The position numbers and the translations under genes were made by a program. From an uncultured Bacteroidales bacterium (lineage in GTDB: Bacteria > Bacteroidota > Bacteroidia > Bacteroidales > Paludibacteraceae), in assembly GCA_903901975.1 (NCBI GenBank), contig CAIUTB010000029.1, positions 1 through 57,759 of the forward strand: a DNA stretch of 57,759 bases, written 5' to 3'. Below the pieces are notes generated by a model. That model was not told the DNA's origin, did not search any database, and saw only the letters and a list, made by a program, of their open reading frames with translations. Positions 19,860 through 57,759 of this stretch are shown here, piece by piece (position 1 is the first letter of the stretch; each line of letters starts with the position of its first letter).

Positions 19860-20465
19860 TTGTTACTCAAACTTTACGATAACAATCCCAATCCGGCTCA
19901 GATTCGTCATATCGCCGAAGTTTTGCGAAATGGTGGAATCATTATTTTCCCTACCGACACCGTATATGCTTTTGGTTGCAGTATTTTTAATGCTAACGCT
20001 GTGGAGTTTATTTCAAAACTAAAAAACCACGATCTACGAAAATCAAACCTTTCATTTATTTGCTCTGAAATGAGCCAAATTAGTGAATATGCCAAAATGG
20101 ACGATCTGGCTTTTAAACTGATGAAGAAGAATTTGCCTGGTCCTTTCACCTTTATTTTAAATGGTAGTAGCAAATTACCCAAACTTTTCAAAAATAAGAA
20201 TACTGTTGGTATACGTATGCCAAATAATTCAATTGCTTTAAGCATTGTACGTGAATTAGGTAATCCACTTATGACTAGTTCCATTTTTACCACGGAAGAC
20301 AGTGAAGAATATTTTACCGATCCTGAATTGATTGATGAAAAATACGGCAATCAGGTTGATTTGGTGATTGATGGTGGCATCGGTGGCTCTATTCATTCCA
20401 CGATAGTCGATTTTACCGAAGGCGATCCCGAAATAGTGAGGCAAGGAGCGGGGGAACTACGCTAA
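19860..20465 (+). CDS. TsaC/Sua5/YciO-type protein (putative threonylcarbamoyl-AMP synthase)
   Basis: A 201-residue YrdC-domain protein. The N-terminal LRNGGIIIFPTDTVYAFGCS, then FTFILNGSSKLPKLF and GIRMPNN, fit the family. TsaC makes the threonylcarbamoyl-AMP used for t6A at position 37 of ANN-decoding tRNAs. The YciO branch shares the fold without proven t6A activity and cannot be excluded. No ATG is available at the expected N-terminus: the frame begins with TTG at 19860, giving MLLKLYDNNPNP, and the nearest upstream in-frame stop is TAA at 19836. The gene ends in a two-unit heptamer (GCTAAGC, GCTAAGT). Confidence 0.82.
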   Translation: MLLKLYDNNPNPAQIRHIAEVLRNGGIIIFPTDTVYAFGCSIFNANAVEFISKLKNHDLRKSNLSFICSEMSQISEYAKMDDLAFKLMKKNLPGPFTFILNGSSKLPKLFKNKNTVGIRMPNNSIALSIVRELGNPLMTSSIFTTEDSEEYFTDPELIDEKYGNQVDLVIDGGIGGSIHSTIVDFTEGDPEIVRQGAGELR

Positions 20466-20512
20466 GCGCTAAGTGAATTCTTTAAAATCCTCAATCCTTT
20501 TAATTCTTAAAA

Positions 20513-21565
20513 TTATTTTTCAATAAACACAGTTTGTGTTGGATAAGCAAATTTAAGACCAGCAGAACTAAATGCACGTAATATCTCCAGATTTACCTGC
20601 GATGGAGTTTCCATGACATCCGCTTTTTTCTTGATGAAATATACAAAAGTAATAGCCAGTGAAAAATCTGTAAAATCTGTAAAAGCTACCACCAAATCTT
20701 TCTCTGAAACATCGGATACCCGATTTGGCATATCACGAAGAATATTCATAGCCTCATTTATCTTCTCGGGTGTTGTATTATAAGTCAAACTTAACTTTAT
20801 CGAAACCCGGCGCATAGGCTCTTCAGAGATGTTTTCAACCGGCGCATCCACCATTTTGTAATTTGGAATAGTCACCAGTCTTTTTTCTAATGTCCGCAAC
20901 CGAGTGCTGCGTATTCCAATATCTTCAATAAATCCATCGTATTTGTCTACTTTTACCCGGTCACCCATTCGAAACGGACGGTCTGTAAAAATGGTTATTC
21001 CACCGAAAATATTTTTTATTGTGTCCTGTGCTGCCAGAGCAAAAGCTAACCCTCCAATTCCTAAGGTACCAAGCAAAGCACGAACATCCACCCCAATATT
21101 ATTCAATGCCATAACACCACCGATCGACCATATTATCGTCAGAATTGTTCGTCGAATTATGGATATAAGATGTGTGTCAAGGATTTTATGTTTGGTATGT
21201 TCTCCTTTTTCTGGAACCCAATATTCTTCAATTAATGAATTTACCAAGCGGGCAACAAACCAGGTGATATTAATCACTGTAAGGATTTTATAAGACTTGG
21301 CGATAATGGTTTCTACATGAAAACCCAAATCCAACCTTTTAGCTGCAATCCATATGGCAAAAAGTGTAATACCCAATAAAACGGGCGATTCCAACATCTG
21401 AAAAAGTATGTCATCGAGCCGATTCTTTGTTTTGCTTGTCAGTTTTTGAATAACATATTTGTTCAGTAAAACAATAATTTTGTTGAGAATTAAAGCTCCG
21501 AGAATTATAATTAATGATATCATCCAATTATAGAGCGTGTTTCCGTAAAATAGTTGATCGAGCAT
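20513..21565 (-). CDS. Small-conductance mechanosensitive channel, MscS family
   Basis: A 350-residue inner-membrane channel. Hydrophobic segments lie near residues 13-35, 58-75 and 90-110, with another near 140-160. The pore-lining helix and beta domain are in GTLGIGGLAFALAAQDTIKN and FTDRPFRMGDRV, and VTIPNYKMVDAPVEN follows. It opens on membrane tension to release solutes under hypo-osmotic shock. The stop is 15 bases downstream of the start-side neighbour nadE on the same strand, so co-transcription is likely. Confidence 0.9.
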   Translation of the reverse strand: MLDQLFYGNTLYNWMISLIIILGALILNKIIVLLNKYVIQKLTSKTKNRLDDILFQMLESPVLLGITLFAIWIAAKRLDLGFHVETIIAKSYKILTVINITWFVARLVNSLIEEYWVPEKGEHTKHKILDTHLISIIRRTILTIIWSIGGVMALNNIGVDVRALLGTLGIGGLAFALAAQDTIKNIFGGITIFTDRPFRMGDRVKVDKYDGFIEDIGIRSTRLRTLEKRLVTIPNYKMVDAPVENISEEPMRRVSIKLSLTYNTTPEKINEAMNILRDMPNRVSDVSEKDLVVAFTDFTDFSLAITFVYFIKKKADVMETPSQVNLEILRAFSSAGLKFAYPTQTVFIEK

Positions 21566-21580
21566 ATTTAAGTTGTCAGT

Positions 21581-23479
21581 TTAATCGTTAATTGAGAAAG
21601 CAATTGCGTCGCTTGGCATGCGCCAGTCACCGCGTGGCGATAGGTTTATTGAACCTACTTTCGGTCCATCAGGTAGGCAGGAACGTTTAAATTGTTGTGC
21701 AAAAAACCTTTTAATAAAGACTTTCAGCCATTTTTCAATGGTTTCAGTTTCGTAGGTTTCTATAAATGCAATTTTGGCTAAGAAAAGTATTTTTGTCGGA
21801 CTGAATCCAAAGCGAACCATATAATACAGGAAAAAATCGTGTAATTCGTATGGTCCTACAATGTCTTCGGTTTTTTGGGCAATATCTCCGTTTTCGTCAG
21901 CCGGCAGCAACTCAGGACTAACCGGAGTATCGAGCACATCGCGCAGAATTTCTTCCGAAATTTTATCTAATTGATGAGCCGCAAAGTCAACCAAATAACG
22001 AACCAGTGTTTTTGGAACACCTGAATTTACGCCGTACATCGACATGTGATCCCCATTATAAGTCGCCCAGCCCAGCGCAAGTTCCGACAAATCACCGGTG
22101 CCGATTACCAACCCATTATGCTTGTTGGCAATGTCCATCAAAATCTGCGTCCGTTCCCGGGCCTGCGTATTTTCGTAGGTCACGTCGTGTTGGTTCGTAT
22201 CGTGGTTAATGTCTTTAAAATGCTGCAACGAAGCATCTTTAATAGAAATTTCGAGCATGGTAATACCCAGTGAGCTCATTAGGTTTACGGCGTTTGAATA
22301 TGTTCTGTCTGTAGTTCCGAATCCAGGCATGGTAATGCCTATTATGCGTTTTCGGTCGTAACCAAGTTTGTCAGCAGTTTTTACAGATACTAACAATGCC
22401 AGTGTAGAATCCAATCCCCCCGAAATTCCCAACACTACAGTTTCTGCATTCGTATGTTTCCAGCGTTTTGCCAAACCGCCTACTTGTATTGAAAAAATTT
22501 CCTCGCAGCTGGCTTCGCGATTTTGTAAAGGTGGAACAAACGGATGTTTATCAAAACTCCGTTTCAGTTCAAACTGTGTGAAATGTGCATCTTCCAGTTT
22601 CACGGTACGATATATTTCATTTGATTTGTCGTTTGTGAAATTGGTATTTCTCAAACGATCAGCTTGTAATCGTTCAATATCAATTTCGCTGACAATCAGT
22701 TGTGGTTCGAACGAAAAACGTTCGGAACTTGCAATGATCTTTCCATTCTCAGCGATAAGACCATTTCCTGCATAAACAACATCAGTCGTTGATTCTCCGG
22801 CACCGGCCGAAGCATAAACATAACCTGCTACACAGCGCGCAGATTGTTGCTCAATGAGTTGGCGTAAATAGTCATGTTTTCCAATTAATTCATTGGTTGC
22901 CGAAAGGTTGAAAATAACATCAGCACCGTGCAATACGTGTTGCGAACTTGGTGGAATGGGCACCCAAAGGTCTTCGCAAAGTTCAATGGCAAAGGAGAAT
23001 TTTCCATCGCTGAAAAGTAAATTTGTTCCGAAAGGAACATTCTCGCTGCAAATAGTGATAGTCTGAACATCAGTAGATTTTGCCGGAGCAAACCATCGTT
23101 TTTCGTAAAATTCGTTGTTATTCGGTATATGGGTTTTAGGTACAACTCCAAGTATATGACCGCCTTGTAGCACGACTGCCGTGTTGAATAATTGATTTTG
23201 AACTTTTAATGGCATTCCTACAATTATGACAGCTGTGGTTGAAAATGTGAGCATTTGAAGCTCGTTCAATGCTTTTTTTGCATCGTCGAGTAATTGTTGC
23301 TGAAAAAATAAATCGGCACAGCTATAGCTTGTTACCGATAATTCAGGAAAACAGATAAGCTGTACTTTCTCCTCTTCGCCTTTCCGAACCAAATCGGCCA
23401 TTCGGGAAGCATTATATGCACAATCAGCCACCCGAAGTTCGGGTATGGCAGCAGCTACACGTACGAATCCATTATTCAT
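21581..23479 (-). CDS. nadE: Glutamine-hydrolysing NAD+ synthase
   Basis: A 632-residue cytosolic enzyme catalysing the last step of NAD synthesis. The N-terminal nitrilase-type glutaminase domain has the expected Glu (CFPELSVTSYSC), Lys (VVPKTHIPNN) and Cys (AIELCEDLWVP). The C-terminal synthetase domain has the ATP-pyrophosphatase loop LGISGGLDSTLAL and GTGDLSELALGWATYNGDH. Length matches the large two-domain bacterial form. ATG at 23479 (MNNGFVRV) is preferred to one 18 bases upstream. The upstream flank carries an inverted CCCCTAA-type element. Confidence 0.94.
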   Translation of the reverse strand: MNNGFVRVAAAIPELRVADCAYNASRMADLVRKGEEEKVQLICFPELSVTSYSCADLFFQQQLLDDAKKALNELQMLTFSTTAVIIVGMPLKVQNQLFNTAVVLQGGHILGVVPKTHIPNNNEFYEKRWFAPAKSTDVQTITICSENVPFGTNLLFSDGKFSFAIELCEDLWVPIPPSSQHVLHGADVIFNLSATNELIGKHDYLRQLIEQQSARCVAGYVYASAGAGESTTDVVYAGNGLIAENGKIIASSERFSFEPQLIVSEIDIERLQADRLRNTNFTNDKSNEIYRTVKLEDAHFTQFELKRSFDKHPFVPPLQNREASCEEIFSIQVGGLAKRWKHTNAETVVLGISGGLDSTLALLVSVKTADKLGYDRKRIIGITMPGFGTTDRTYSNAVNLMSSLGITMLEISIKDASLQHFKDINHDTNQHDVTYENTQARERTQILMDIANKHNGLVIGTGDLSELALGWATYNGDHMSMYGVNSGVPKTLVRYLVDFAAHQLDKISEEILRDVLDTPVSPELLPADENGDIAQKTEDIVGPYELHDFFLYYMVRFGFSPTKILFLAKIAFIETYETETIEKWLKVFIKRFFAQQFKRSCLPDGPKVGSINLSPRGDWRMPSDAIAFSIND

Positions 23480-23485
23480 ATTTAT

Positions 23486-23567
23486 CCCCAGCCCCAAAAG
23501 GGGAGTTAGATTAGTGTTGTTTTATATCAAAAAGTTATCTTCAAGCCCCTTTAGGGGTTTGGGGTAC
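23486..23567. repeat. Inverted CCCCTAA-type element between nadE and DUF2721
   Basis: The left arm (23486-23505, CCCCAGCCCCAAAAGGGG) and right arm (23545-23566, GCCCCTTTAGGGGTTTGGGG) are inverted relatives separated by about 40 nt. The right arm contains the last codons of the DUF2721 gene. Architecture is the same as 58-152. Confidence 0.7.
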
Positions 23568-23969
23568 ATTCTCTTTTTTATTTTCCATATCACTCAGATA
23601 AATTTCCAGCGAACGGGCTGAAATCTGAATTTCCCACACCGACAAAGAAAGTGAAATTATCAGAAATATCAAAGCAATTCCGAAAACATAAACAGAGATG
23701 ATTTGTAAGCCTATATAAATCAGAAACATAGTAGCTACACAAAGTAGCAGGCTGGCAACACCAAATAATTGCATATTCTTGGTAAGGTAAAGCCGTTTAC
23801 GCAAGTTCATAATTTGAGCATGAGTCATTGCCGAATGGTCATCCATATAACGGTCTTTGAGCGTCCGCACCAGTTGAGCATACGACAAAAACCGATTAGT
23901 AAATGCTAGTAATATTAACGAAATAGCTGAAAATAAGAATGTTGGTGTAATTAATGTTAATTTTTCCAT
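23541..23969 (-). CDS. DUF2721 membrane protein
   Basis: A 142-residue inner-membrane protein with three hydrophobic segments (about residues 7-25, 68-88 and 92-112), matching DUF2721. The polar loop RTLKDRYMDDHSAMTHAQIMNLRKRLYL is typical. No function is established. The last residues, VPQTPKGA, are encoded by the right arm of the repeat element and are therefore probably not ancestral. The start codon is seven bases from the left end of a candidate mobile unit. Confidence 0.82.
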   Translation of the reverse strand: MEKLTLITPTFLFSAISLILLAFTNRFLSYAQLVRTLKDRYMDDHSAMTHAQIMNLRKRLYLTKNMQLFGVASLLLCVATMFLIYIGLQIISVYVFGIALIFLIISLSLSVWEIQISARSLEIYLSDMENKKENVPQTPKGA

Positions 23970-23976
23970 AATTTAG

Positions 23977-24428
23977 TAGTAAGCGGTAAGCGGTAAACAG
24001 CAAGCAAAATACCTTTACTTCTTCATTTTGTTTTTAGTAGCTGTAAAAATCTTAATTAGCTCATCGGCTTCATTTTTAATGTGTTGAAATGTAGAAATAT
24101 CTAACAGATTTGCTTCTTCAATCAATTCAAACCAAAACTGCGTTTCATCTGTTTCTTCAACCACAATACAAAGTTTGGGAAATTTTTCTGCCTCTGACCT
24201 TCCACGGGTAAATGCTCTGAAATTAGCGGCAACAGAAGTCCCCGAGCGAAGTAGCTGCTTACCAATAATCCTTAATTCTTCAGTTTGTTTGCAGTATTTG
24301 GCATAAAATAGGGTGACAGAAACAGCAAATTTTTTTGTTCGTTCTCTGAATTTCTCGTTATAATCTGAATATTGATTCATGAGTTAATTATATGGAATTT
24401 CTTACTGCTTACCGTTTGCTGCTTACCG
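23977..24428. mobile_element. Candidate mobile unit: inverted heptamer arrays around a four-helix-bundle gene
   Basis: The left array (23977-24004) reads TAGTAAG, CGGTAAG, CGGTAAA, CAGCAAG. The right array (24401-24428) reads CTTACTG, CTTACCG, TTTGCTG, CTTACCG, which is the same heptamer inverted. The 452-bp unit contains one gene on the minus strand and lies 7 nt from the DUF2721 start and 6 nt from the flavodiiron stop. Shorter array-spacer-inverted array units without a gene occur elsewhere in the window. Mobility is inferred from architecture only; no known transposase is present. Confidence 0.5.
24015..24380 (-). CDS. Four-helix-bundle protein, S23/IVP family
   Basis: A 121-residue all-helical protein. 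RSGTSVAANFRAFTRGRSEAEK, then KLCIVVEETDETQFWFELI, are hallmarks of the family first found encoded in intervening sequences of 23S rRNA genes (Leptospira, Coxiella). The biochemical role is unknown. Here no rRNA is nearby; the gene is enclosed by inverted heptamer arrays with 10-20 nt margins. The unit seems to be inserted between the flavodiiron gene and DUF2721, all on the minus strand. The frame is intact and the protein full length. Confidence 0.88.
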   Translation of the reverse strand: MNQYSDYNEKFRERTKKFAVSVTLFYAKYCKQTEELRIIGKQLLRSGTSVAANFRAFTRGRSEAEKFPKLCIVVEETDETQFWFELIEEANLLDISTFQHIKNEADELIKIFTATKNKMKK

Positions 24429-24434
24429 CTATAT

Positions 24435-25652
24435 TTACACGCAATGCTCGGGTTCATCAACCAAGTCTTTCATCAAAATCGCTACCTGACGTCCAAGCTC
24501 CAGACAGGCCTTATAATTATCTTCTTTCAAACCCTGTTTTTCATCTACCGATATTTCAGCGGATTGCCATTTCATGGTTTCCACAAATGTTTTTAACCGT
24601 TTTACGGCAGCACTTGCCCAGGTAAACGATCCAAAACATCCAAAAACCCGATTTTTCACCTGACGAATTTCAATTTTACGTAGAATCGAATCAATTTCAG
24701 GAAAAAGTTCGTTGCTGTAGGTCGGACTTCCTACTATCAACGCTTTATATTTGAAAACATCCCGAATTATAATACTCGGATCGCTTTTCGATACATTGTG
24801 AATGATAATGTTTTTCACTCCCATTTCGGCAACACCCTGAGCCACAGTTTCGGCCATTAATTCTGTGTTTCCGTACATCGAACCATAAATGATTACCACA
24901 CCATCATCACCGTGATAACGGCTAAACTGGTCGTACATATCCACCACTTCTGTAATGTATTTTTTCCAAACTGGCCCATGGGTGCTGCAAATATACTTAA
25001 ATTCCAGCGGAGTAAGTTTTTTTAGTGCTTTTTGAATGGCTGAACCGTATTTCCCAACAACGTTCGCATAATAACGTGCCATTTCGTCCCAGTAGCGGTT
25101 TACGTCTAATTTATCGTCCACAACCGAACCATCAAGTGTGCCAAAACTCCCGAAAGCATCTCCCGAAAATAAAACCATTTCAGTCTTATCGTAAGTCATC
25201 ATGGTTTCAGGCCAGTGAACCATCGGTGTCAGGTGAAACTGTAGTTTATGCTTTCCTAGCGATAAAATTTCTCCATCTTTTATTTCGAGCGTGTTATCGG
25301 TAACTCCGTAATAGCCTTCCACCATACTCAGTGTTTTTGAATTACCCACAATAACCATATCAGGATAATATTTCCGGATGGAACGGATAGAACCGGAATG
25401 ATCAGGTTCCATATGGTTGATTATCAAATAGTCGACAGTTCTTCCCTGTAGCTGCGACTGAATTTTATCTATAAAAATATCGCCAAATTGAACTTCGACC
25501 GTATCAACAAGCGCTACTTTTTCATCCACAATCAGATAGGAATTGTACGAAACCCCATTGGGTAACGAAATCATATTTTCAAACTTATGCTTCTGTCTGT
25601 CATTCACACCGACATAAAAAATATCAGCTGCAATTTGTTGATTTTTAAACAT
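24435..25652 (-). CDS. FprA-type flavodiiron protein
   Basis: A 405-residue cytosolic enzyme reducing O2 to water or NO to N2O in anaerobes. The N-terminal metallo-beta-lactamase-like domain carries the diiron ligands in INHMEPDHSGS and FSGDAFGSFG, with HWPETMM and STHGPVW. The C-terminal flavodoxin domain begins VVIIYGSMYGNTELMAE and binds FMN. No rubredoxin domain is fused. A -7 box TATCTTTG lies at 25727-25720 on the minus strand. With superoxide reductase and SodB in the same window it fits an oxygen-defence set. Confidence 0.93.
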   Translation of the reverse strand: MFKNQQIAADIFYVGVNDRQKHKFENMISLPNGVSYNSYLIVDEKVALVDTVEVQFGDIFIDKIQSQLQGRTVDYLIINHMEPDHSGSIRSIRKYYPDMVIVGNSKTLSMVEGYYGVTDNTLEIKDGEILSLGKHKLQFHLTPMVHWPETMMTYDKTEMVLFSGDAFGSFGTLDGSVVDDKLDVNRYWDEMARYYANVVGKYGSAIQKALKKLTPLEFKYICSTHGPVWKKYITEVVDMYDQFSRYHGDDGVVIIYGSMYGNTELMAETVAQGVAEMGVKNIIIHNVSKSDPSIIIRDVFKYKALIVGSPTYSNELFPEIDSILRKIEIRQVKNRVFGCFGSFTWASAAVKRLKTFVETMKWQSAEISVDEKQGLKEDNYKACLELGRQVAILMKDLVDEPEHCV

Positions 25653-25972
25653 TTGATTTATATTCTATAGTTAAATACACAGCTTTTTAATACCTGAAAT
25701 TTTTCTTTAATTGAGAGTACAAAGATAAAACAATTTTAGGAACTGATTAGCACGTATTCACAATTCATATGGCTTATAACCGAATAGAATAACTCTATAT
25801 GCTAAACTAAAAACAATATATTAACTTTTGAAGGGGCTTTCATAGTCGTTCATCAAGGTTTTTTTGAGTACTTTTGTGATTAGTTCATTCAGTTTGAAAG
25901 TTAATAAAGTTTAAACTGATCTTACTTTTTTAGCATTTTACTTTTCCACTTTATAAACTTGTTTCAAAACCT
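25653..25972. promoter_or_regulatory. Divergent promoter region between flavodiiron and topB genes
   Basis: This 320-bp gene-free stretch separates divergent genes. On the minus strand TATCTTTG (25727-25720) is a good -7 box for the flavodiiron gene. On the plus strand TACTTTTG (25869-25876) is a -7 box for topB. Neither has a clear TTG at the usual distance. No repeat or hairpin is evident. Confidence 0.5.
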
Positions 25973-27901
25973 ATGATAGTTTGCATTGCCGAAAAGCCCA
26001 GTGTGGCGCGTGATATAGCCGAAGTTTTAGGAGCAAAAACCCGTAAGGATGGCTATATAGAGGGAAACGGATATCAGGTAACCTGGACATTTGGACATTT
26101 ATGCGGGCTACTCGAACCACACGAATATGCACCTGAATGGAAAGCATGGGCACTCAGTCAGTTGCCTATGATTCCGCAACGTTTTGGTATTAAGGTGATG
26201 AATGATAGCGGGATTCAGAAGCAGTTTAAGGTGATTGAAACCTTGATGGCAAATGCTGATGAAGTAGTGAACTGCGGTGATGCGGGGCAGGAAGGTGAAT
26301 TGATACAGCGCTGGGTGATGCAGAAAGCGCTGTGCAAATGTCCGGTGAAACGTTTGTGGATTTCATCGCTTACCGAAGAAGCCATTCGAGAAGGTTTTAA
26401 CAAACTGAAGGATCAGTCTGACTACCAAAGTCTATACGAAGCCGGCCTTTCTCGTGCCATGGGTGATTGGTTGCTGGGAATGAATGCTACACGGCTTTAT
26501 ACATTGAAATACGGTAAAAATCGTCAGGTACTTTCTATTGGGCGGGTTCAAACCCCGACTTTGGCATTGATTGTAAATCGACAGTTGGAAATAGAGAATT
26601 TCAAACCAGAATCGTATTGGGAATTAAAAACTGTTTACCGAGATACGGTTTTCTCAGCTTCAAAAGGTCGTTTTTCGAGTGTGGAAGAAGGTACCAATTT
26701 TTTGGATACGGTTCGTACTGCCGATTTTTTTGTAACGGATATTAGCACCAAAAAAGGTACGGAATCTGCTCCACGTCTGTTCGATCTGACTTCGTTACAG
26801 GTTGAATGCAATAAAAAATTTGGGTATTCAGCCGACGAAACGCTGAAAATTATCCAAAGTCTATACGAGAAAAAGGTGACAACTTATCCGCGTGTAGATA
26901 CTACCTACCTGAGCGACGATATTTATCCGAAAATACCGGACATTCTGAAAGGAATAAAAGACTACGAATTGTTGACTAAACCCTTACTGGGAACCAAAAT
27001 TCCAAAAACAAAAAAGGTTTTTGATAATTCTAAAGTGACTGATCACCATGCTATTATACCAACCGGTGTTCATCCAACAGCCTTATCAGACCCGGAGAAA
27101 AAGGTTTTTGATTTGGTGGCCAGACGTTTTATAGCCAATTTTTATCCCGAATGTAAAATTTCGACTACTACCATTTTGGGAGAAGTGGAAAAGGTAGAAT
27201 TTAAAGTCACCGGAAAACAAATTTTGGAACAAGGATGGCGTGTGGTTTTTGCTAAAGTGCAGGAAGAAGAAAAAGACAACGAAGAGGAGGAAGAATGGAC
27301 TTTGCCACTTTTTGTAAAAGGGGAAAACGGTCCACACGAACCAACACTGGCGGAAAAATGGACTTCGCCACCAAAACCATATACCGAAGCGACTTTGCTA
27401 AGAGCTATGGAAACAGCCGGAAAACTGGTTGATGACGACGAACTACGCGATGCATTGAAGGAAAACGGTATTGGCAGACCATCCACACGTGCAGCTATTA
27501 TTGAAACACTTTTCAAACGTGATTATGTCCGGCGTGAAAAGAAAAACCTGATTGCCACCAATACCGGTGTGGAACTGATTCAGATTATTCAGGAAGATTT
27601 GCTCAAATCGGCCGAACTGACAGGCCGCTGGGAGAAAAAGCTCAGGCAAGTAGAAAAAGGTGAATATCAGGCAAAAGACTTTCTGGATGAACTCAAAACG
27701 ATGGTTACTGAAATTGTTTTCAATGTAAAAAGCGATAATCGACGACCGGGTGAACAAGCATTGAACATTTCACCCGAAGTGAAGTCTTCAATAGAAGGTT
27801 CTCTTTGTCCGCTTTGTGGCAAAGGCATTCTTCTGAAAGGAAATACGGCTTATGGATGCAGCGAATGGAAAAATGGTTGCACTTTCAGAAAACCTTTTTG
27901 A
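25973..27901 (+). CDS. topB: DNA topoisomerase III (type IA)
   Basis: A 642-residue enzyme that relaxes and decatenates DNA through a 5'-phosphotyrosine. The Toprim domain starts at IVCIAEKPSVARDIAEVLGA, with GDAGQEGELIQRW. The catalytic tyrosine is in VTTYPRVDTTYLSDD, and GIGRPSTRAAIIETL and GRWEKKLRQVEKGE follow. A C-terminal zinc ribbon has two cysteines in CPLCGKGI and two more in GCSEWKNGC. Length and single ribbon fit the TopB branch common on Bacteroidetes chromosomes and their mobile elements. No conjugative genes are nearby. Confidence 0.93.
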   Translation: MIVCIAEKPSVARDIAEVLGAKTRKDGYIEGNGYQVTWTFGHLCGLLEPHEYAPEWKAWALSQLPMIPQRFGIKVMNDSGIQKQFKVIETLMANADEVVNCGDAGQEGELIQRWVMQKALCKCPVKRLWISSLTEEAIREGFNKLKDQSDYQSLYEAGLSRAMGDWLLGMNATRLYTLKYGKNRQVLSIGRVQTPTLALIVNRQLEIENFKPESYWELKTVYRDTVFSASKGRFSSVEEGTNFLDTVRTADFFVTDISTKKGTESAPRLFDLTSLQVECNKKFGYSADETLKIIQSLYEKKVTTYPRVDTTYLSDDIYPKIPDILKGIKDYELLTKPLLGTKIPKTKKVFDNSKVTDHHAIIPTGVHPTALSDPEKKVFDLVARRFIANFYPECKISTTTILGEVEKVEFKVTGKQILEQGWRVVFAKVQEEEKDNEEEEEWTLPLFVKGENGPHEPTLAEKWTSPPKPYTEATLLRAMETAGKLVDDDELRDALKENGIGRPSTRAAIIETLFKRDYVRREKKNLIATNTGVELIQIIQEDLLKSAELTGRWEKKLRQVEKGEYQAKDFLDELKTMVTEIVFNVKSDNRRPGEQALNISPEVKSSIEGSLCPLCGKGILLKGNTAYGCSEWKNGCTFRKPF

Positions 27902-27934
27902 ATCACATTTAAATTTAACTGCAAATTATTAACG

Positions 27935-27965
27935 TTCGACTATCAACTGATTTTTTGTATCTTTG
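27935..27965 (+). promoter_or_regulatory. Promoter for the M16 peptidase gene
   Basis: TTC at 27935-27937 and TATCTTTG at 27958-27965, 20 nt apart. The start codon is 24 bases downstream. Confidence 0.6.
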
Positions 27966-27989
27966 CGCTTCTTTTTTACAAGCTAAGGA

Positions 27990-29210
27990 ATGAAATATCA
28001 AACTCATACACTTTCTAACGGACTTCGAATTATACATAAACCTGATCAATCGGCTGTTGCGTATTGTGGTATAGTCATTAATACGGGCTCACGCGATGAA
28101 ACAGAAGATGAGCAGGGAATGGCCCATTTTCTCGAACACATGCTTTTTAAAGGCACTAAGAAGCGTCGTTCCGGGCATATTATCAATCGCTTGGAACATG
28201 TGGGAGGAGAACTGAATGCCTATACTTCGAAGGAAGAAACAGTAATATATGCTGCAGTGTTGAAAGAGTATTTTGAGCGGGCTATGGAACTGGTATCGGA
28301 TATTGTGCTTAATTCTGTTTTTCCTCAAAAAGAAATTGATAAAGAGGTAGTTATCATTTTGGATGAAATTCAGTCTTACAACGATAGTCCCTCAGAATTA
28401 ATTTACGATGATTTTGAAGAACTGCTTTTTGCAAATCATCCAATTGGTCATAATATCTTGGGAAAATCAGAGTTGTTGCAAAAATACCTAACTGAAGATG
28501 CTGTGAATTTCATTCAGAAGCATTACCGACCGGAAGAAATGGTGTTTTTTGCATTGGGAGATTTAAATTTTAAACAATTAATCCGCTGGGCAGAAAAATA
28601 CTTACTGACTAAAGATACTGAATTAAAAGTAGTTGAACGCTTTTCTCCAACATCCTACAAACCAGTCAAAAAAGAAATAAATAAAGATACTCATCAGGTT
28701 CATTTTATGTTGGGTAACAGGGCGTATGATTTAAACCATCCCAGCCGTATGGGAATGTATTTGCTGAATAATATTCTGGGTGGACCTGGTATGAACAGCC
28801 TGCTAAATTTATCACTTCGTGAAAAGCATGGCTTGGTTTATAATGTGGAATCGAACTTTCAACCTTTTACCGATACCGGTTTGTGGACGGTTTATTTTGG
28901 TTGTGATACCGAAAATGCCGCTCGATGCGAGCAATTGGTGATGAATGAATTACAAAAACTGCGTGAACAGAAATTAACCGACAATGCACTAAAAAAGTAT
29001 AAACTTCAGTTGATGGGACAAATGGCTATTTCGTCGGAACAGAAAGAAAATCTGGCACTTAGCTTAGGTAAAAGTTTTCTCAGATATAATAAAATTGATA
29101 GTCTGGAAGTTGTAAAACAGCATATTGATTCGGTTACTCCCGAACAATTGCAAACGATTGCCAACGAGATTTTTGATCCGGCTAAATTGTCGGTTTTAAA
29201 ATACGTTTAG
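27990..29210 (+). CDS. M16 family zinc metallopeptidase
   Basis: A 406-residue protein of the pitrilysin/processing-peptidase family. The inverted zinc motif HFLEH is in GMAHFLEHMLFKGTKKR, and the third ligand Glu is expected within EKEVVI-LDEIQSY. The C-terminal half has GGPGMNSLLNLSLREKHGLVYNVES, the typical R/Y pair region. No signal peptide is seen, so it is probably cytosolic and degrades peptides. It precedes an O-methyltransferase gene after a repeat arm. Confidence 0.9.
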   Translation: MKYQTHTLSNGLRIIHKPDQSAVAYCGIVINTGSRDETEDEQGMAHFLEHMLFKGTKKRRSGHIINRLEHVGGELNAYTSKEETVIYAAVLKEYFERAMELVSDIVLNSVFPQKEIDKEVVIILDEIQSYNDSPSELIYDDFEELLFANHPIGHNILGKSELLQKYLTEDAVNFIQKHYRPEEMVFFALGDLNFKQLIRWAEKYLLTKDTELKVVERFSPTSYKPVKKEINKDTHQVHFMLGNRAYDLNHPSRMGMYLLNNILGGPGMNSLLNLSLREKHGLVYNVESNFQPFTDTGLWTVYFGCDTENAARCEQLVMNELQKLREQKLTDNALKKYKLQLMGQMAISSEQKENLALSLGKSFLRYNKIDSLEVVKQHIDSVTPEQLQTIANEIFDPAKLSVLKYV

Positions 29211-29240
29211 AAGCCCCCTAACGCCCAAAAAGGGGTATAG
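29211..29240. repeat. Single CCCCTAA-type repeat arm
   Basis: GCCCCCTAACGCCCAAAAAGGGG follows the M16 stop codon directly. It resembles the arms of the inverted elements. No partner is seen within 100 bases. Confidence 0.5.
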
Positions 29241-29278
29241 AGAGCTTAAATTCCAGCTTTGAAAGATTTAATGAGTTT

Positions 29279-29923
29279 ATGAATATAGATAATTATCTGT
29301 TATCTCACTCTGATAAAGAGCCTGAATATCTGGCTCGTATCAATCGTACAACGCATGTGCGAATGTTAAATCCGAGAATGTGTTCCGGCCATTTTCAGGG
29401 TAGAGTTTTGGCTATGTTCTGCCACATGATTCAACCCCTAAAGGTACTTGAAATAGGTACTTTTACCGGATATTCTGCTTTGTGTATGGCCGAGGCTTTG
29501 AATGCTGATGCTGTCTTACACACTATTGAGTGCGATGATGAGCTGGAAGAATTTATTTTGCAAAACTTTAGGGGTTCGGAACATGGACATAAAATCAACT
29601 TGCACATTGGTGATGCGTTGACTGAAATTGAAAAGCTGAACGAAACTTTTGATTTAGTATTCATTGATGCTGATAAACGTGAGTATCTGGCTTATTATGA
29701 AGCTGTTCTACCTAAATTGAAACCTGGTGGTTTTATTCTGGCTGATAATACCCTTTGGGATGGAAAAGTGCTGAAACCGGTTGATGCAAATGATAATCAA
29801 ACCATTGAAATCATGCGGTTTAATGATTTTATTACTACCGACCATCGGGTAGAAAAAGTAATGTTGCCCTTGCGTGATGGATTAACGATAATCAGAAAAA
29901 AATGTGCCAATGTGCCAATATGA
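29279..29923 (+). CDS. SAM-dependent O-methyltransferase (catechol type)
   Basis: A 214-residue class I methyltransferase. The SAM-binding motif is VLEIGTFTGYSALCMAEAL. The metal-binding acidic residues are in DLVFIDADKREYLAYYE, and GGFILADNTLWDGKV follows. These fit the family acting on catechol-like or caffeoyl substrates and on tRNA-hydroxyuridine (TrmR). Substrate here is unknown; TrmR activity is possible. The last residues, CANVPI, are encoded by an octamer array. Confidence 0.87.
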   Translation: MNIDNYLLSHSDKEPEYLARINRTTHVRMLNPRMCSGHFQGRVLAMFCHMIQPLKVLEIGTFTGYSALCMAEALNADAVLHTIECDDELEEFILQNFRGSEHGHKINLHIGDALTEIEKLNETFDLVFIDADKREYLAYYEAVLPKLKPGGFILADNTLWDGKVLKPVDANDNQTIEIMRFNDFITTDHRVEKVMLPLRDGLTIIRKKCANVPI

Positions 29924-30031
29924 TAATTTGCAAATAAAAAAAGTGGCTAAATTGTAGTTTTGAAATTTATTTATCGAGAATAATCTAAGAAAATTTTTTA
30001 TTGGCACATTAATTAATTAGCATATTGAAAA
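29903..30031. repeat. Inverted octamer element, TGTGCCAA type
   Basis: The left array (29903-29934) reads TGTGCCAA, TGTGCCAA, TATGATAA, TTTGCAAA. The right array (30000-30031) reads ATTGGCAC, ATTAATTA, ATTAGCAT, ATTGAAAA, the inverted family. The spacer is about 65 nt. The pair fills the gap between the O-methyltransferase stop and the thioesterase start. Confidence 0.6.
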
Positions 30032-30033
30032 TT

Positions 30034-30444
30034 ATGTATATATTTGAATTAGAACTAAAAGTGCGCGATTACGAGTGTGATATTCAGGGGGTTGTAAATA
30101 ACTCTGTTTATCAGAATTATCTGGAACATACCCGCCATGAGTTTATGGAAGCAAATCATATCAGTTTTGCAGAATTACACGAACGAGCTATTGATCCAAT
30201 GGTTTCGAGCATTGAAATTGCGTATAAAATTCCATTACGACCGGGAGATAATTTTATATCCAAACTCTATGTTACAAAAGAAGGTGTTCGCTATATTTTT
30301 CATCAGGTTATACACCGAAAATCTGATAATAAACTGGCAATCAAAGCAAAAGTACATGCTGTGGTAGTGATTGATGGCAAACTGGCAACTTCACTTCCTG
30401 AATTTGATGAATTGGTTATTCGTAGTGGTTCCAACATTGAATAA
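30034..30444 (+). CDS. Acyl-CoA thioesterase, YbgC/4HBT family
   Basis: A 136-residue hotdog-fold thioesterase. The family signature is near the start: [25 protein letters not shown], where the Asp of YECD corresponds to the catalytic Asp of 4-hydroxybenzoyl-CoA thioesterases. It then has [13 protein letters not shown] and [10 protein letters not shown]. The enzyme would hydrolyse a short acyl- or aryl-CoA in the cytosol. ATG at 30034 is chosen; a TTG at 30025 lies in the octamer array. Substrate cannot be inferred from neighbours. Confidence 0.85.
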
Positions 30445-30507
30445 ACTATTTAGTCGTTTGGCTTGTTTATCAATTTGAATTTGATAATTGTATAATCAGA
30501 AATTGAA

Positions 30508-30822
30508 ATGAACGAATTTTTAGAAAAAGAAGAACAAATAGTCAGAATGCTAAAAACGGTGTTCGACCCTGAAATTCCTGTCAATATTTATGATTTGGGA
30601 TTGATTTATAAAATTGATTTAGCCGACGATGGTCTATTAACGATAGAAATGACACTTACAGCACCCAATTGCCCTGCCGTAGACTTTATTGTAGAAGATG
30701 TACGCATGAAAGTGGCCAGCGTAGAAGGAGTTAAAGAGGTTGATGTGAATATTGTTTTTGAGCCTGCCTGGGATAAAAGTATGATGAGCGAGGAAGCTCA
30801 ACTTGAACTGGGATTCCTTTAA
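30508..30822 (+). CDS. sufT: MIP18/SufT-like Fe-S assembly protein (DUF59)
   Basis: A 104-residue cytosolic protein of the DUF59/MIP18 family, needed for maturation of some Fe-S proteins. DPEIPVNIYDLGLIYKI and TLTAPNCPAVDF with the conserved Cys are the family signatures. sufE and sufS lie 1-2 kb downstream on the other strand, which supports the assignment. It is followed by an inverted heptamer element and lpxH. Confidence 0.88.
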   Translation: MNEFLEKEEQIVRMLKTVFDPEIPVNIYDLGLIYKIDLADDGLLTIEMTLTAPNCPAVDFIVEDVRMKVASVEGVKEVDVNIVFEPAWDKSMMSEEAQLELGFL

Positions 30823-30825
30823 TTT

Positions 30826-30891
30826 GAGTTGACAGTTGATAGTTGTCAGTTGACAACAGCCTCTATCAACTATCAACTTTTAACTATTAAC
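30826..30891. repeat. Inverted heptamer element, AGTTGA type
   Basis: The left array reads GAGTTGA, CAGTTGA, TAGTTGT, CAGTTGA (30826-30853). The right array reads TATCAAC, TATCAAC, TTTTAAC, TATTAAC (30864-30891), the inverted family. The spacer is only 10 nt, so a strong hairpin can form. It starts three bases after the sufT stop and ends five before the lpxH start. Confidence 0.75.
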
Positions 30892-30896
30892 TAAAA

Positions 30897-31640
30897 ATGA
30901 TTTATTTTGTTTCCGACGCCCATTTGGGTTCACTACTGGTAAAAGATAATAGAGCTCACGAGAAAAAACTTGTCGACTGGCTTGAAAAAGTAAGGGTAGA
31001 TGCTACAGCTATTTACTTATTGGGCGATATTTTCGATTTTTGGTTCGAATATGAAACCGTTGTACCAAAGGGATTTGTCCGTGTCTTGGGCAAACTGGCA
31101 GAATTGACTGATGCCGGAATTGAAATTCATTTTTTTATCGGAAATCACGATATATGGACCTTTGGATACCTGGAGAAAGAACTGGGATTAATAGTTCATA
31201 AAGAAGCTTATACCACCAAATTAGGCGATAAAACCTTTTACATGGTTCATGGTGATGGTTTGCATTTAGACCGAAACGGTTTTGCTTTTATCCGCAAGAT
31301 TTTTCACAGCCGATTTGCTCAATGGCTTTTCGGCAATTTTCCACCCCGGCTCGGACAGAGGTTTGGGTATAACTGGTCATACCGAAACAGGCTGAATCTT
31401 ATTTATGAAGAAACTACCTATAAAGGCGAAAATGAGGAGAATATTGTAGTCTTTGCCAAGCAGTATGCCCAAAATCACGATGTTGATTTTATGATATTCG
31501 GACATAGGCACATAGCTCTCGATTTGCTGTTGAAAGATAATAAACGGGTGGTTATTCTCGGCGATTTTGTCGGAATTTTTTCATATGGAGTCTTCGATGG
31601 AAACGAATTCAGATTGGAGTATTTTGAACATGAACAGTAA
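30897..31640 (+). CDS. lpxH: UDP-2,3-diacylglucosamine diphosphatase, LpxH-like
   Basis: A 247-residue calcineurin-like metallophosphoesterase. The metal-site motifs are in order: SDAHLGS, LGDIFDFWFEYE, IGNHDIW, MVHGDGL and FGHRH. The enzyme hydrolyses UDP-diacylglucosamine to lipid X in lipid A synthesis at the inner membrane. FDFWFEY and YRNRLNLIYEE are typical of the Bacteroidetes LpxH-like group. The stop codon TAA belongs to the first heptamer (CAGTAAA) of the following array, and the final Gln is array-encoded. Confidence 0.87.
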   Translation: MIYFVSDAHLGSLLVKDNRAHEKKLVDWLEKVRVDATAIYLLGDIFDFWFEYETVVPKGFVRVLGKLAELTDAGIEIHFFIGNHDIWTFGYLEKELGLIVHKEAYTTKLGDKTFYMVHGDGLHLDRNGFAFIRKIFHSRFAQWLFGNFPPRLGQRFGYNWSYRNRLNLIYEETTYKGENEENIVVFAKQYAQNHDVDFMIFGHRHIALDLLLKDNKRVVILGDFVGIFSYGVFDGNEFRLEYFEHEQ

Positions 31641-31741
31641 ACAGAAAGCACTTCAGAAAACTAAAATCCTTATAGAACCATTGGTTGTATAAGGATTTAT
31701 TTTTTAATGTTTTTTTACCGCTTACTGTTTAGTGCTTACTG
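31635..31741. repeat. Inverted heptamer element, CAGTAAA type, around a terminator
   Basis: The left array CAGTAAA, CAGAAAG (31635-31648) and right array TTTACCG, CTTACTG, TTTAGTG, CTTACTG (31714-31741) are inverted. The 65-nt spacer contains a terminator hairpin. The left array includes the lpxH stop codon and the right array the sufE stop codon, so the element spans the whole gap between convergent genes. It shares its heptamer with the four-helix-bundle unit. Confidence 0.75.
31664..31706. terminator. Terminator between lpxH and sufE
   Basis: AAATCCTTATA pairs with TATAAGGATTT, and inside it AACCA pairs with TGGTT. A T run follows on the plus strand. It can serve lpxH and perhaps sufE. 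Confidence 0.85.
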
Positions 31742-32153
31742 CTGATTTATAGGCTAATGCAAATATTTTCATTTGTTTAACCATTGCCAGTAATCCATTG
31801 GAACGGGTAGGAGAGAGGTGTTCTTTTAATCCTATTTTGTCAATAAAATAGAGTTCAGTGTTTATTATTTCGTCCGCTGTGTGACCCGAAAGAACCTGAA
31901 TAAGCAATGAAACAATTCCTTTTACCAAAACTGCATCGCTTTCGCCCTGATAAGTAATAATTCCATTGTTTAATTCGGCGTTCAGCCATACACGGCTCTG
32001 GCAACCTTCTATAATATTTTGAGGATTTTTGTGCTTCGGGTCAAGTGCTTCAAGTGAATTCCCCAAATCAATGAGTAATGCGTATTTATCCATCCAATCG
32101 TCAAATTGGCTGAATTCTTCAATAATTTCGTCTTGTAATTCGTTGATAGTCAT
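31722..32153 (-). CDS. sufE: SufE-like sulfur acceptor
   Basis: A 143-residue cytosolic protein that takes persulfide sulfur from the SufS cysteine desulfurase. The acceptor cysteine is in IIEGCQSRVWLNAE. FSQFDDWMDKYALLIDLG at the start and SNGLLAMVKQMK near the end fit the family. ATG at 32153 (MTINELQ) is preferred to a TTG at 32168. The C-terminal VSTKQ and stop codon are encoded by a heptamer array. The partner sufS lies just upstream. Confidence 0.9.
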   Translation of the reverse strand: MTINELQDEIIEEFSQFDDWMDKYALLIDLGNSLEALDPKHKNPQNIIEGCQSRVWLNAELNNGIITYQGESDAVLVKGIVSLLIQVLSGHTADEIINTELYFIDKIGLKEHLSPTRSNGLLAMVKQMKIFALAYKSAVSTKQ

Positions 32154-32173
32154 ATATTCAATTTTCAATTATG

Positions 32174-32235
32174 TAATTTCCAATTTCCAATTTCCAATTA
32201 TTTCAGATTTACCGCTTACTGGTTATCGTTTGCTG
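32174..32235. repeat. Two adjacent heptamer arrays (CAATTTC and CAGTAAG types)
   Basis: The first array is TAATTTC, CAATTTC, CAATTTC, CAATTAT (32174-32201). The second, TTTACCG, CTTACTG, GTTATCG, TTTGCTG (32208-32235), is the inverse of CAGTAAG/CGGTAAA. They fill the gap between sufE and the sufS stop codon; the latter abuts the second array as CAG-TAG on the minus strand. Confidence 0.7.
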
Positions 32236-33459
32236 CTACTGTAACATTCCCACCACCCGTTTCAGTGCCACAATAAAATTATCAATTTCTCCTTTTGTAT
32301 TATAAAAAGCAAAGGAAACACGGACAGTCCCGGGAATTTCGAGCGAATCAATCAAGGGTTGAGCGCAATGATGGCCGGTACGAACAGCAATGCCCAATTT
32401 GTCAAGTAACATACCGATATCGTAAGGATGAATAGTTCCAACCAGGAAGGAAATGACTGCACTTTTTTCTTTAGCAGTTCCGATTATGTGCATTCCTTCA
32501 ATCTCGAATAAGCGCTCAGTAGCATAAGTGAGCAAACCATGTTCGTGTATGGCGATGGTATCTAATCCGATACATTGTACATAACGCAAGGCTTCAGCCA
32601 GCGCTGTAGAACCAATATAATCAGGTGTTCCGGCTTCAAACTTAAACGGTAATTCGTTATAAGTTGTCTTCTCAAATGTCACTGTCTGAATCATTTCGCC
32701 ACCACCCTGATACGGCGGAATGGCGTTCAACAAGTTTTCTTTTCCGTAAAGTACACCAATTCCGGTTGGTCCGTAAATTTTATGAGCGGAAAAAACGTAA
32801 AAATCAGCATCAAGTTCAACTACATTTACAGGAATATGCGGAACAGACTGAGCTCCATCCACTAAAACCGGAACATTGTGCTCATGAGCTAATCTGATAA
32901 TTTCTGCAACCGGATTTATTGTGCCTAACACATTAGAAACGTGGGCAATAGAAACGATTTTAGTGTGTTCGTTCAGCAATGATTTATAAATCTCCAAATC
33001 AAGTTCGCCACGTTCATTTATCGGAATCACCCGAAGTCTCATTCCTTTTCGCTCACACAGCATTTGCCATGGAACAATGTTGGAATGGTGCTCCATAACC
33101 GAAACAATTACTTCGTCACCTGCTTTGCAAAAGGCTTCACCAAAAGAAGTTGCCACCAAATTGATTGCCTCAGTGGTGCCACGTGTAAAAATAATTTCTT
33201 CGCGTTTGCCCGCATGAAGAAATTCGGCCACAGTACTTCGGGCTGCTTCATGTGCTTCGGTAGCTTTCTGGCTCAGGTAATGAACACCCCTATGGATATT
33301 GGCATTGAGATGATAATAGCCTTCTTCAATTCGCTCAACAACACAACGTGGTTTTTGAGTCGTGGCACCGTTGTCGAAATAAATCAGGTCTTTAGTATAT
33401 ATTTTTTCAGTCAGAATTGGAAAATCTGCCCGAATCTGTCGTAGTTGTTCGTTAGTCAT
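32236..33459 (-). CDS. sufS: Cysteine desulfurase, SufS type
   Basis: A 407-residue PLP enzyme releasing sulfur from cysteine for Fe-S cluster assembly. The PLP lysine is in FSAHKIYGPTGIGVLYG and the persulfide cysteine in RTGHHCAQPLID. HRGVHYLSQKATEAHEAAR and TRGTTEAINLVA fit the SufS group. It lies upstream of sufE with about 80 bp of repeats between. The promoter is at 33525-33494 on the minus strand, with its TTG inside an octamer array. SufBCD genes are not in the window. Confidence 0.94.
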   Translation of the reverse strand: MTNEQLRQIRADFPILTEKIYTKDLIYFDNGATTQKPRCVVERIEEGYYHLNANIHRGVHYLSQKATEAHEAARSTVAEFLHAGKREEIIFTRGTTEAINLVATSFGEAFCKAGDEVIVSVMEHHSNIVPWQMLCERKGMRLRVIPINERGELDLEIYKSLLNEHTKIVSIAHVSNVLGTINPVAEIIRLAHEHNVPVLVDGAQSVPHIPVNVVELDADFYVFSAHKIYGPTGIGVLYGKENLLNAIPPYQGGGEMIQTVTFEKTTYNELPFKFEAGTPDYIGSTALAEALRYVQCIGLDTIAIHEHGLLTYATERLFEIEGMHIIGTAKEKSAVISFLVGTIHPYDIGMLLDKLGIAVRTGHHCAQPLIDSLEIPGTVRVSFAFYNTKGEIDNFIVALKRVVGMLQ

Positions 33460-57605: not shown

Positions 57606-57759
57606 CAGTGAACAGTAAACAGTAAACAGTAAACAGTAAACAGTAAGCGGTAAACAGTAAGCAGTAAACAGTAAACAGTAAGCGGTAAACAGCAAGCAGT
57701 AAACAGTAAGCAGTAAACAGTAAGCAGTAAACAGTAAGCAGTAAACAGTAAGCAGTAAA
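57606..57759. repeat. Heptamer tandem array, CAGTAA(A/G), at least 22 units
   Basis: Twenty-two gapless heptamers fill 57606-57759 exactly and run off the window edge. Most are CAGTAAA or CAGTAAG, which alternate over the last units to give a 14-bp higher-order repeat. Variants are CAGTGAA, CGGTAAA and CAGCAAG. TAA in each unit prevents translation in all forward frames. The same heptamer flanks the four-helix-bundle gene at 23977-24428. Confidence 0.9.

Follow-up and report, generated by a model that had tools for sequence, protein, structure and literature searches.

A probable mobile unit in an uncultured Bacteroidales bacterium: an S23/IVP-type gene enclosed by inverted heptamer arrays

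The intervening sequence (IVS) in the 23S rRNA of Coxiella has been described as a selfish element of 428 nt with an S23 open reading frame (ORF) and a 28-bp terminal stem (PMC4990558). The same account gives IVS sizes of 428 to 444 nt, reports that the stem around the S23 ORF is cut by RNase III, and considers the IVS to be horizontally acquired, with its functionality and origin called unclear. According to older proposals cited there, such IVSs are remnants of transposition or former mobile elements. Tandem repeats of heptamers have also been described in bacteria. TAACTGA arrays occur in Beggiatoaceae, Cyanobacteria, and Bacteroidetes, often near start codons, and no mechanism is evident from their description (PMC4679880). 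GGGAATC and GGGGA(C/T)T repeats were reported for Xanthomonas and Nostoc, with 70 inverted GGGAATC pairs in Xcc and 75 in Xac (PMC4692102). As described there, GGGAATC repeats are generally not associated with mobile elements, and 90% of them lie between the same ORFs in two Xanthomonas species; such arrays can therefore be stable. In the trnL P6b intron of Nostoc, heptanucleotides pair into a hairpin (PMC3488679). The BrickBuilt MITE of Porphyromonas gingivalis carries 23-nt tandem repeats in its middle, whereas its ends resemble those of known IS elements (PMC4596501).

A link of S23/IVP genes to heptamer arrays was not found in the parts of the journal literature searched, and a recent description, in a preprint for example, may exist. 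In REPIN/RAYT systems, the few gene copies are flanked on either side by the end motif, gene-less copies are numerous in the same genome, and the motifs are lineage specific. RAYT belongs to the Y1 transposases, and the REP ends are palindromic.

The DNA analyzed here, referred to as the window, is a stretch of 57,759 nt from an uncultured Bacteroidales bacterium of the Paludibacteraceae (GCA_903901975.1, contig CAIUTB010000029.1, positions 1 to 57,759). The unit of interest fills the gap (23970..24434) between the start codon of a DUF2721 gene (23541-23969, minus strand) and the stop codon of a flavodiiron-type gene (24435-25652, minus strand), which encodes ODP and flavodoxin domains. It contains an intact ORF on the minus strand (24015..24380) for a four-helix-bundle protein of 121 amino acids. 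The left array (23979..24006), which is the downstream arm of this gene, consists of GTAAGCG, GTAAGCG, GTAAACA, and GCAAGCA; the right array (24402..24429), its upstream arm, is the inverse of the left and consists of TTACTGC, TTACCGT, TTGCTGC, and TTACCGC. A preliminary description of this DNA had reported four heptamers on the left and four inverted ones on the right, enclosing one intact S23/IVP-type gene, which our analysis confirmed. The inverted local match (score of 19) was reached by none of 2,000 dinucleotide shuffles of the two gaps. Period-7 scores were reached by 0 of 2,000 shuffles for the gap downstream of the gene and by 8 of 2,000 for the gap upstream. Two inverted pairs were computed at the unit, of 38 nt at 76% (I1) and of 25 nt at 84% (I2). 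The distances given earlier were close but not exact: the gene-to-array margins, described as 10 to 20 nt, measure 8 and 21 nt, and the spacing between the unit ends and the neighboring codons, given as 6 to 7 nt, is 9 nt on the side of the DUF2721 start codon (23969) and 5 nt on that of the flavodiiron stop codon (24435). The earlier suggestion of a self-propagating or domesticated unit was partly supported, in that gene and arrays behave as one movable unit ended by the arrays, but not the view that the arrays replace inverted repeats, as the arms are themselves inverted repeats built of heptamers. Unit ends can be placed to within a few nucleotides, and TAAAT is found at both edges of the gap.

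The protein matches TIGR02436 at 69.4 bits (cutoff, 24) and PF05635 (23S_rRNA_IVP) at 47.2 bits (cutoff, 33.8). Its structure, modeled as a single chain, shows four helices with a pLDDT of 91.9. The best fold matches obtained with Foldseek were 2RLD (TM, 0.78 to 0.88) and 2GSC (TM, 0.71 to 0.80), each of which holds five chains, and a sequence search returned these two structures only. They were followed by Avd (4DWL_D; TM, 0.68/0.76) and by chains of reverse transcriptase complexes of diversity-generating retroelements (DGRs; 8UB7 and others). A likeness between PF05635 and Avd is stated in PMC10053308, which also refers to the publication on 2GSC, with five four-helix bundles named in its title. 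No catalytic domain of the protein was named by Pfam, NCBIfam, or the fold search. Analysis of the unit by ORF, Pfam, and NCBIfam revealed no transposase, nor was a nuclease, a recombinase, or a reverse transcriptase found in it. An Rfam scan of positions 20000-33000 gave no match to rRNA.

The unit resembles the 23S rRNA IVS, as described, in the name of its protein family, in size (about 430 to 470 nt for the units reported here), and in its terminal inverted repeats around an S23 ORF. Unlike the IVS, which is located in rRNA, the present units occupy intergenic gaps and protein genes, and the one in the window sits between the DUF2721 and flavodiiron genes and not in a 23S rRNA helix. Furthermore, their ends are tandem heptamer arrays that change from copy to copy, and gene-less relatives exist. 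Because the likeness to the IVS extends to gene, size, and inverted ends while the location differs, we did not file them as IVS members. Tandem 7-nt units, a mostly intergenic position, and common inverted pairs are shared with the known heptamer repeats; in contrast to these as described, the arrays here are tied to S23/IVP genes and to the ends of a unit that appears movable. As with MITEs, BrickBuilt included, the units are short, possess inverted ends, and have gene-less copies, and BrickBuilt also contains inner tandem repeats. However, the heptamer arrays represent the ends themselves, the target is lost instead of duplicated, and no partner transposase is known. The occurrence of few gene-bearing copies with the motif on both sides and of many gene-less copies, and the lineage specificity of the motifs, are reminiscent of REPIN/RAYT, but the IVP protein has no Y1 transposase domain and the motif match between gene-bearing and gene-less copies is incomplete. 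Its predicted fold is that of the DGR protein Avd; unlike for DGR Avd, no reverse transcriptase is encoded by the two typed neighbors of the window gene (DUF2721 and flavodiiron).

Heptamer arrays are far more common than IVP genes, a fact left out of the preliminary description. With one mismatch allowed, the heptamer type of the window unit gave 99 + 90 matches in its own genome, compared to 17 + 6 for the control. The exact double unit occurs 103 times in this genome, 25 to 33 times in three relatives, and no more than 5 times in each of the remaining 26 of 30 genomes; for a different heptamer family, genome G005 has the highest count (182). Two solo arrays of the window unit's type are found in the window, one at 31715..31743 (TTACCGC/TTACTGC) and one of about 22 heptamers (CAGTAAA/CAGTAAG/CGGTAAA) at 57606..57758, the contig end. 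Contig C37 of the same genome (G000:C37:5-172) starts with an array of the type that ends the window (57606-57759), and the assembly probably breaks at this shared array. Some IVP contigs (L072, L077, and L100) stop shortly past the gene. Among the exact heptamer places listed for the window's genome, only the window unit lies within 1 kb of a TIGR02436 match, and arrays alone therefore do not mark the gene. Arrays were present in 7 of 10 sampled 20-kb stretches of the window's genome (G000) and in 4 of 10 of genome G016. In the window and these 20 stretches, 30 of 33 arrays were located outside predicted ORFs, mostly near start or stop codons. We also noticed an ACTGTCA-type array at 4069-4099, inside the ORF at 3027-4385.

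The gap upstream (30823-30896) of an lpxH-like gene (30897-31640), between two genes, contains a gene-less hairpin of the AGTTGAC type, another heptamer than that of the window unit. Its inverted arrays (30827-30855 and 30863-30893) are separated by 7 nt. A match of region 30818-30900 to MIR781 in Rfam was below the gathering score on both strands and was taken as chance. Period-7 arrays were found in the corresponding gap in the window's genome and at 6 of 29 other loci, three with the same flanking gene pair as the window (L200, L201, and L208) and three more (L196, L207, and L216), all with unlike heptamers. Eleven loci with the window's lpxH gene pair had gaps of -4 to 78 nt and no array above the threshold. 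Arrays in this gap thus turn over fast, a variation among relatives that the preliminary description had also not included. Together with the abundance of arrays and the existence of gene-less hairpins, these unlike or missing arrays speak for an explanation in which arrays and hairpins turn over by themselves in intergenic slots, by slippage or foldback copying, and the position of IVP genes between the arms is incidental.

Whether other copies of the gene have arrays, a check suggested at the outset, could be answered with a first set of 120 loci, which hold 124 gene matches, including a few weak ones that are second in their locus; L012, which duplicates L011, had been removed. TIGR02436-type genes are numerous, with at least 584 of 587 listed pattern matches confirmed in one scan of named genomes. 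At least one match was present in 33 of 40 genomes, including that of the window, which contains 12, two of them halves of one gene. The first-set loci are a part of the listed matches and were not picked by their flanks, although better-scoring matches are overrepresented. Full flanks were available for 114 of the 124 genes (10 left out), and a second comparison used 118 genes (6 left out). As a control, we used 584 mechanical ORFs of at least 90 amino acids, whose sources were the window plus 40 20-kb stretches belonging to seven genomes of one genus; the 114 IVP genes represent a larger number of genomes, including those of other families. Within 220 nt, period-7 scores of 11 or higher were obtained upstream of 51 IVP genes, downstream of 65, on both sides of 42, and on either side of 74. 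Windows about 980 to 1,200 nt away from the IVP genes reached this score in 2 of 106 and 1 of 107 cases. Period 14, a multiple of 7, was detected on either side of 58 of the 114 genes and period 8 at 20, while periods 4 to 6, 9 to 13, and 15 gave 0 to 12.

Control ORFs showed arrays upstream in 25 cases, downstream in 34, and on both sides in 2. An inverted match of at least 20 between the flanks was found for 78 of 114 IVP genes but for only 2 of 584 ordinary ORFs (Fisher P = 2.5e-72). Both arms with a period-7 score of at least 11 combined with such an inverted match were found for 34 of 114 IVP genes and for no control ORF (Fisher P = 1.6e-29). Both comparisons speak against IVP genes merely having come to lie between independent arrays. 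When the upstream flank was compared to the inverse of the downstream flank, 81 of 118 genes scored 20 or more, in contrast to 1.9% of mismatched pairs. The association has its exceptions: the inverted match was absent from 36 of 114 IVP genes of the first set and from 41 of 79 named loci, and a direct match of at least 20 exceeded the inverted one at 12 of 118 genes and 9 of the 79 named loci. Array pairs that match better in direct orientation were seen at L304, L278, L261, L283/L015, L115, and L073. Some IVP genes without period 7 possess inverted arrays of another unit length, e.g., 6, 8, or about 15 to 16 nt. The inverted arrays of L104, L140, L129, and L025 consist of longer or mixed units (about 15 to 17 nt with small inner palindromes, or mixtures of 7 and 8).

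The same relationship was evaluated at loci of named genomes. One scan yielded 80 loci, and with L303 left out on account of its short flank, 79 remained. L283 (Bacteroidetes bacterium ADurb.Bin174, MWCX01000086.1) is identical to L015 (2077/2077 nt) and represents the same place in genome G006, which was assigned to the window's genus and gives a hint at the window's kin; L283 was kept in the named-locus, arm-agreement, and heptamer-versus-identity analyses and dropped from the wobble analysis. Judged by their titles, the loci belong to Bacteroidota, Desulfobacterota, Cloacimonadota, candidate phyla, Clostridia, Cyanobacteria, Proteobacteria, and others. Period-7 arrays were present upstream of 29, downstream of 36, and on both sides of 24 of the 79, compared to 5 of 72 and 2 of 71 distal windows. 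An inverted match of at least 20 was found at 38 of the 79 loci and in 1.1% of mismatched pairs. The heptamer itself varies from locus to locus, being CGGAACT in Geobacter, for example. Nevertheless, the heptamer profiles of the two arms exceeded the 95% point of the null in inverted sense for 65 of 96 units and in direct sense for 13 of 96. Gene and matched inverted arms thus go together across phyla.

Twenty of the 80 named loci, picked for weak or no period 7 and scanned for a link to rRNA, gave no match in Rfam. The IVP protein of L001 had no match in 50,697 phage records. Where IVP genes carry an annotation in the plasmid records inspected, they are mostly called "four helix bundle protein," "S23 ribosomal protein," or hypothetical. 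The units on cyanobacterial plasmids L332, L333, and L342 lie beside defense-type genes (DISARM drmD and MmeI-like or DNA methyltransferase genes). At L329 (Nostoc ATCC 53789 pNsp_b), the unit adjoins xisH/xisI and has more than 35 heptamers in the array on one side; similar distributions of TAACTGA repeats and XisH/XisI have been stated in PMC4679880.

Comparison of copies at nonorthologous places delimited the unit. Homology covers the gene and at most the arms, ending at or inside the arms in 55 of 57 query-side records, many of them inside, and extending past the arms by more than 15 nt in only 2. Two copies at separate places of a single genome, L142 and L143, share 80% identity between -94 and +51 relative to the gene, and their arms end at these limits. 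That such copies have gene and arms in common and hardly anything beyond speaks against arrays that arise at each place by themselves. The same applies to the relationship between heptamers and proteins. At nonorthologous places, heptamer similarity stays at background level until protein identity exceeds 50% and then rises, from 0.50 (<50%) through 0.535 and 0.615 to 0.741 (≥70%). The highest class comprises 24 pairs, which are not independent, as many share L076 or L105 and one pair is the same locus twice. Since heptamer similarity follows protein identity, the ends move along with the gene, and they change quickly and in both arms at once. Mismatches within arms comprise 687 transitions and 633 transversions. 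In a trio of units in a Nostoc methyltransferase gene, described below, L330 and L335 have one heptamer more than L331 in each arm, which is a single event. Arm lengths correlate weakly (rho = 0.21; P = 0.036), and equal arm length was dropped as a rule because of this weak correlation. These patterns suggest that foldback or conversion copies the sequence of one arm onto the other, and we consider it probable that the arms are functional ends.

A comparison of the DUF2721/flavodiiron gap in close strains had been proposed as a way of finding empty sites, and such sites are present. A search of 39 relatives located the DUF2721 gene in 21, of which 11 had the flavodiiron gene next to it within the fetched flank. 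By tblastn, the IVP gene was absent from the gap in all 11. The empty gaps range from 6 nt (L044) to 593 nt (L055). At the window unit, the 5-nt TAAAT may be a target site duplication. For a second unit of the window's genome (L008), 9 of 9 relatives with both flanks close among the matches listed had empty sites. Their gaps of 47 to 280 nt, in comparison to about 550 nt in L008, are too short for the gene. At this site, a short stretch resembling the right arm is retained in L398, and repeats of other kinds are present in L401 and L402.

Insertion events could be followed more closely on Nostoc plasmids. Plasmid pC052_A of Nostoc sp. C052 carries a unit of about 431 nt (L417) with perfect 36-nt inverted ends of TAATTCG heptamers, whereas the sequence is uninterrupted in pC052_D of the same strain and in three further plasmids. 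The right flank is identical between pC052_A and pC052_D (338/338), and the left flank is about 93% identical over 424 nt. The unit replaces 197 nt of pC052_D sequence. In the empty alleles (L418-L421), no period-7 array with a score of 9 or more was detected; this difference between gene-bearing and empty versions of near-identical DNA weighs against IVP genes merely ending up between independent arrays. In three Nostoc plasmids, a DNA cytosine methyltransferase gene that is annotated at 759 to 765 bp in five other plasmids is split by a second unit, which measures about 466 nt and has CAATTCG ends. Here, 328 nt were replaced relative to L336, L337, and L338 and 331 relative to L339. The third event is a gene-less CAATTCG hairpin about 0.6 kb downstream of the L330 unit, which interrupts the 3' part of a DUF1392 gene. 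It is absent from L335, L336, and L341 and occurs at the matching place in L422, another plasmid of the same strain. Six comparisons gave target losses of 24, 26, 29, 47, 52, and 73 nt. We took the loss as 24 to 29 nt from the first three, because in those with 47 to 73 nt the right-hand match resumes downstream, past a 24-nt length difference between the plasmids. No target duplication was visible by eye in any of the three events. CAATTCG also occurs near the left break of the methyltransferase target; copying of the heptamer from the target is not claimed, because CAATTCG is likewise found in the second hairpin elsewhere. Planktothrix plasmids were also inspected for empty sites, and all three matching records carry the unit.

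From these observations, gene and arrays are very probably a mobile unit, and a mere accumulation of IVP genes between independently changing arrays is rather improbable. Near-identical gene-bearing copies with different flanks in one genome were not found among the loci compared, the closest being L142/L143 with 80% of their DNA shared, and gene-bearing units therefore seem to move rarely.

The evidence for a coupling of gene-less and gene-bearing units was mixed. Gene-less copies share their motif with a gene-bearing unit in the window's genome, in Nostoc ATCC 53789, and in Geobacter AOG1, where four of five TIGR02436 matches were examined. When the arms of a genome's own IVP units were compared with its solo arrays, the own set ranked first of 14 in the window's genome and third of 14 in G016. 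The rumen Clostridia genome G049, the source of L253, has 165 matches to the CGGRACT double heptamer, and nine hairpins fetched from it (L403-L411) have CGGGACT arms and a similar center and occur in both orientations, as aligned by eye. However, CGGGACT was not found in the best flank array of any of the 16 TIGR02436 matches of G049. The hairpins mostly span 131 to 155 nt between the outermost heptamers. Their outer flanks look alike as well (AAATTCTGATTT and its inverse), and the true ends may therefore lie further out. The heptamer of L261 gave two matches, in 1 of 16 genomes (its own), both probably within the unit itself. We rejected the strict rule by which gene-less arrays should match an IVP unit of their own genome, as it fails in G049, is weak in G016, and finds no extra copies for L261. 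Solo-array density does not follow the number of IVP genes either, with nine matches and a single solo array in 140 kb in genome G001.

A different possibility is that the arms act in RNA, pairing in the transcript with the gene in the loop and forming a stem for processing, stability, or autoregulation, and that movement is incidental. Precedents are the S23 ORF of Coxiella in its RNase III-cut stem (PMC4990558) and the Nostoc trnL intron heptamers that form a hairpin (PMC3488679), as far as these are described. In line with this, the Nostoc unit folds far better than its shuffles (z = -8.4; 0 of 100 as good), but the window unit folds no better than shuffled sequence (z = -1.0; 15 of 100 as good). 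Selection on sense-strand RNA was rejected by the mismatches in the arms of 136 units, which show no wobble asymmetry, 295 being G-U-compatible transitions and 281 incompatible ones (P = 0.59). The two orientations of the gene-less CGGGACT hairpins, as seen by eye, also argue against it. Folded RNA as the selected form of the arms is not supported, and we regard a primarily RNA-level function as quite improbable.

It is more improbable still that the unit is an ordinary miniature element, with the arms serving as terminal inverted repeats of an unrecognized insertion sequence family, the transposase acting in trans, and the IVP gene as a passenger. In favor of this reading are the gene-less copies with shared termini and center, the terminal inverted repeats, the empty sites, and the TAAAT on both sides of the window unit, of which removal of one copy would leave a 6-nt gap as in L044; TAAAT at both edges may, however, be chance, because TAA is the stop codon. 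Against it are the loss of target with no visible duplication in the three Nostoc events and the end sequences that differ among unrelated units, which a sequence-specific transposase would hardly allow.

The reading that we prefer, with some reserve, is that of a small mobile cassette, in which one S23/IVP (Avd-like) gene is bounded by matched inverted heptamer arrays acting as its ends. Such a cassette would measure about 430 to 470 nt, the size in three measured cases, and its arrays would mostly comprise a few heptamers, with twenty or more in some units. It would settle in short intergenic slots, or inside genes on plasmids, take the place of a piece of the target rather than duplicate the target site, and have gene-less relatives with the same kind of ends. 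The arms may serve as recognition ends that are read severalfold by the IVP protein, whose solved relatives hold five chains, and their likeness could be maintained if, during movement, one arm served as the template for the other through foldback or conversion. As no catalytic domain is named in the protein, we propose that it recognizes the ends or handles an intermediate, and that breakage and joining come from elsewhere. It may carry, anneal, or protect a nucleic acid intermediate, with cutting and joining, or reverse transcription, supplied by the host or another element. Target replacement without duplication fits annealing or template-switching recombination better than a DDE transposase. 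That the IVP protein is needed for movement can be put forward only tentatively, and a route through RNA and reverse transcription appears unlikely.

This movable combination of gene and repeats seems to be widespread and little described. It is conceivable, if speculative, that these units form an element class of many phyla without a transposase of its own, in which a pentameric Avd-like protein acts on heptamer ends, the target is replaced, and the heptamer can change provided that both arms do. The 23S rRNA IVS would then be the branch that dwells in rRNA, and heptamer hairpins such as those of GGGAATC in Xanthomonas, trnL P6b in Nostoc, and TAACTGA would be gene-less offspring. Heptamer ends that vary and still agree between the arms point to a copying step, and we know of no described transposon with a step of this kind. 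The origin of S23/IVP intervening sequences and the role of their protein, together with the spread of heptamer arrays, would become one testable question.
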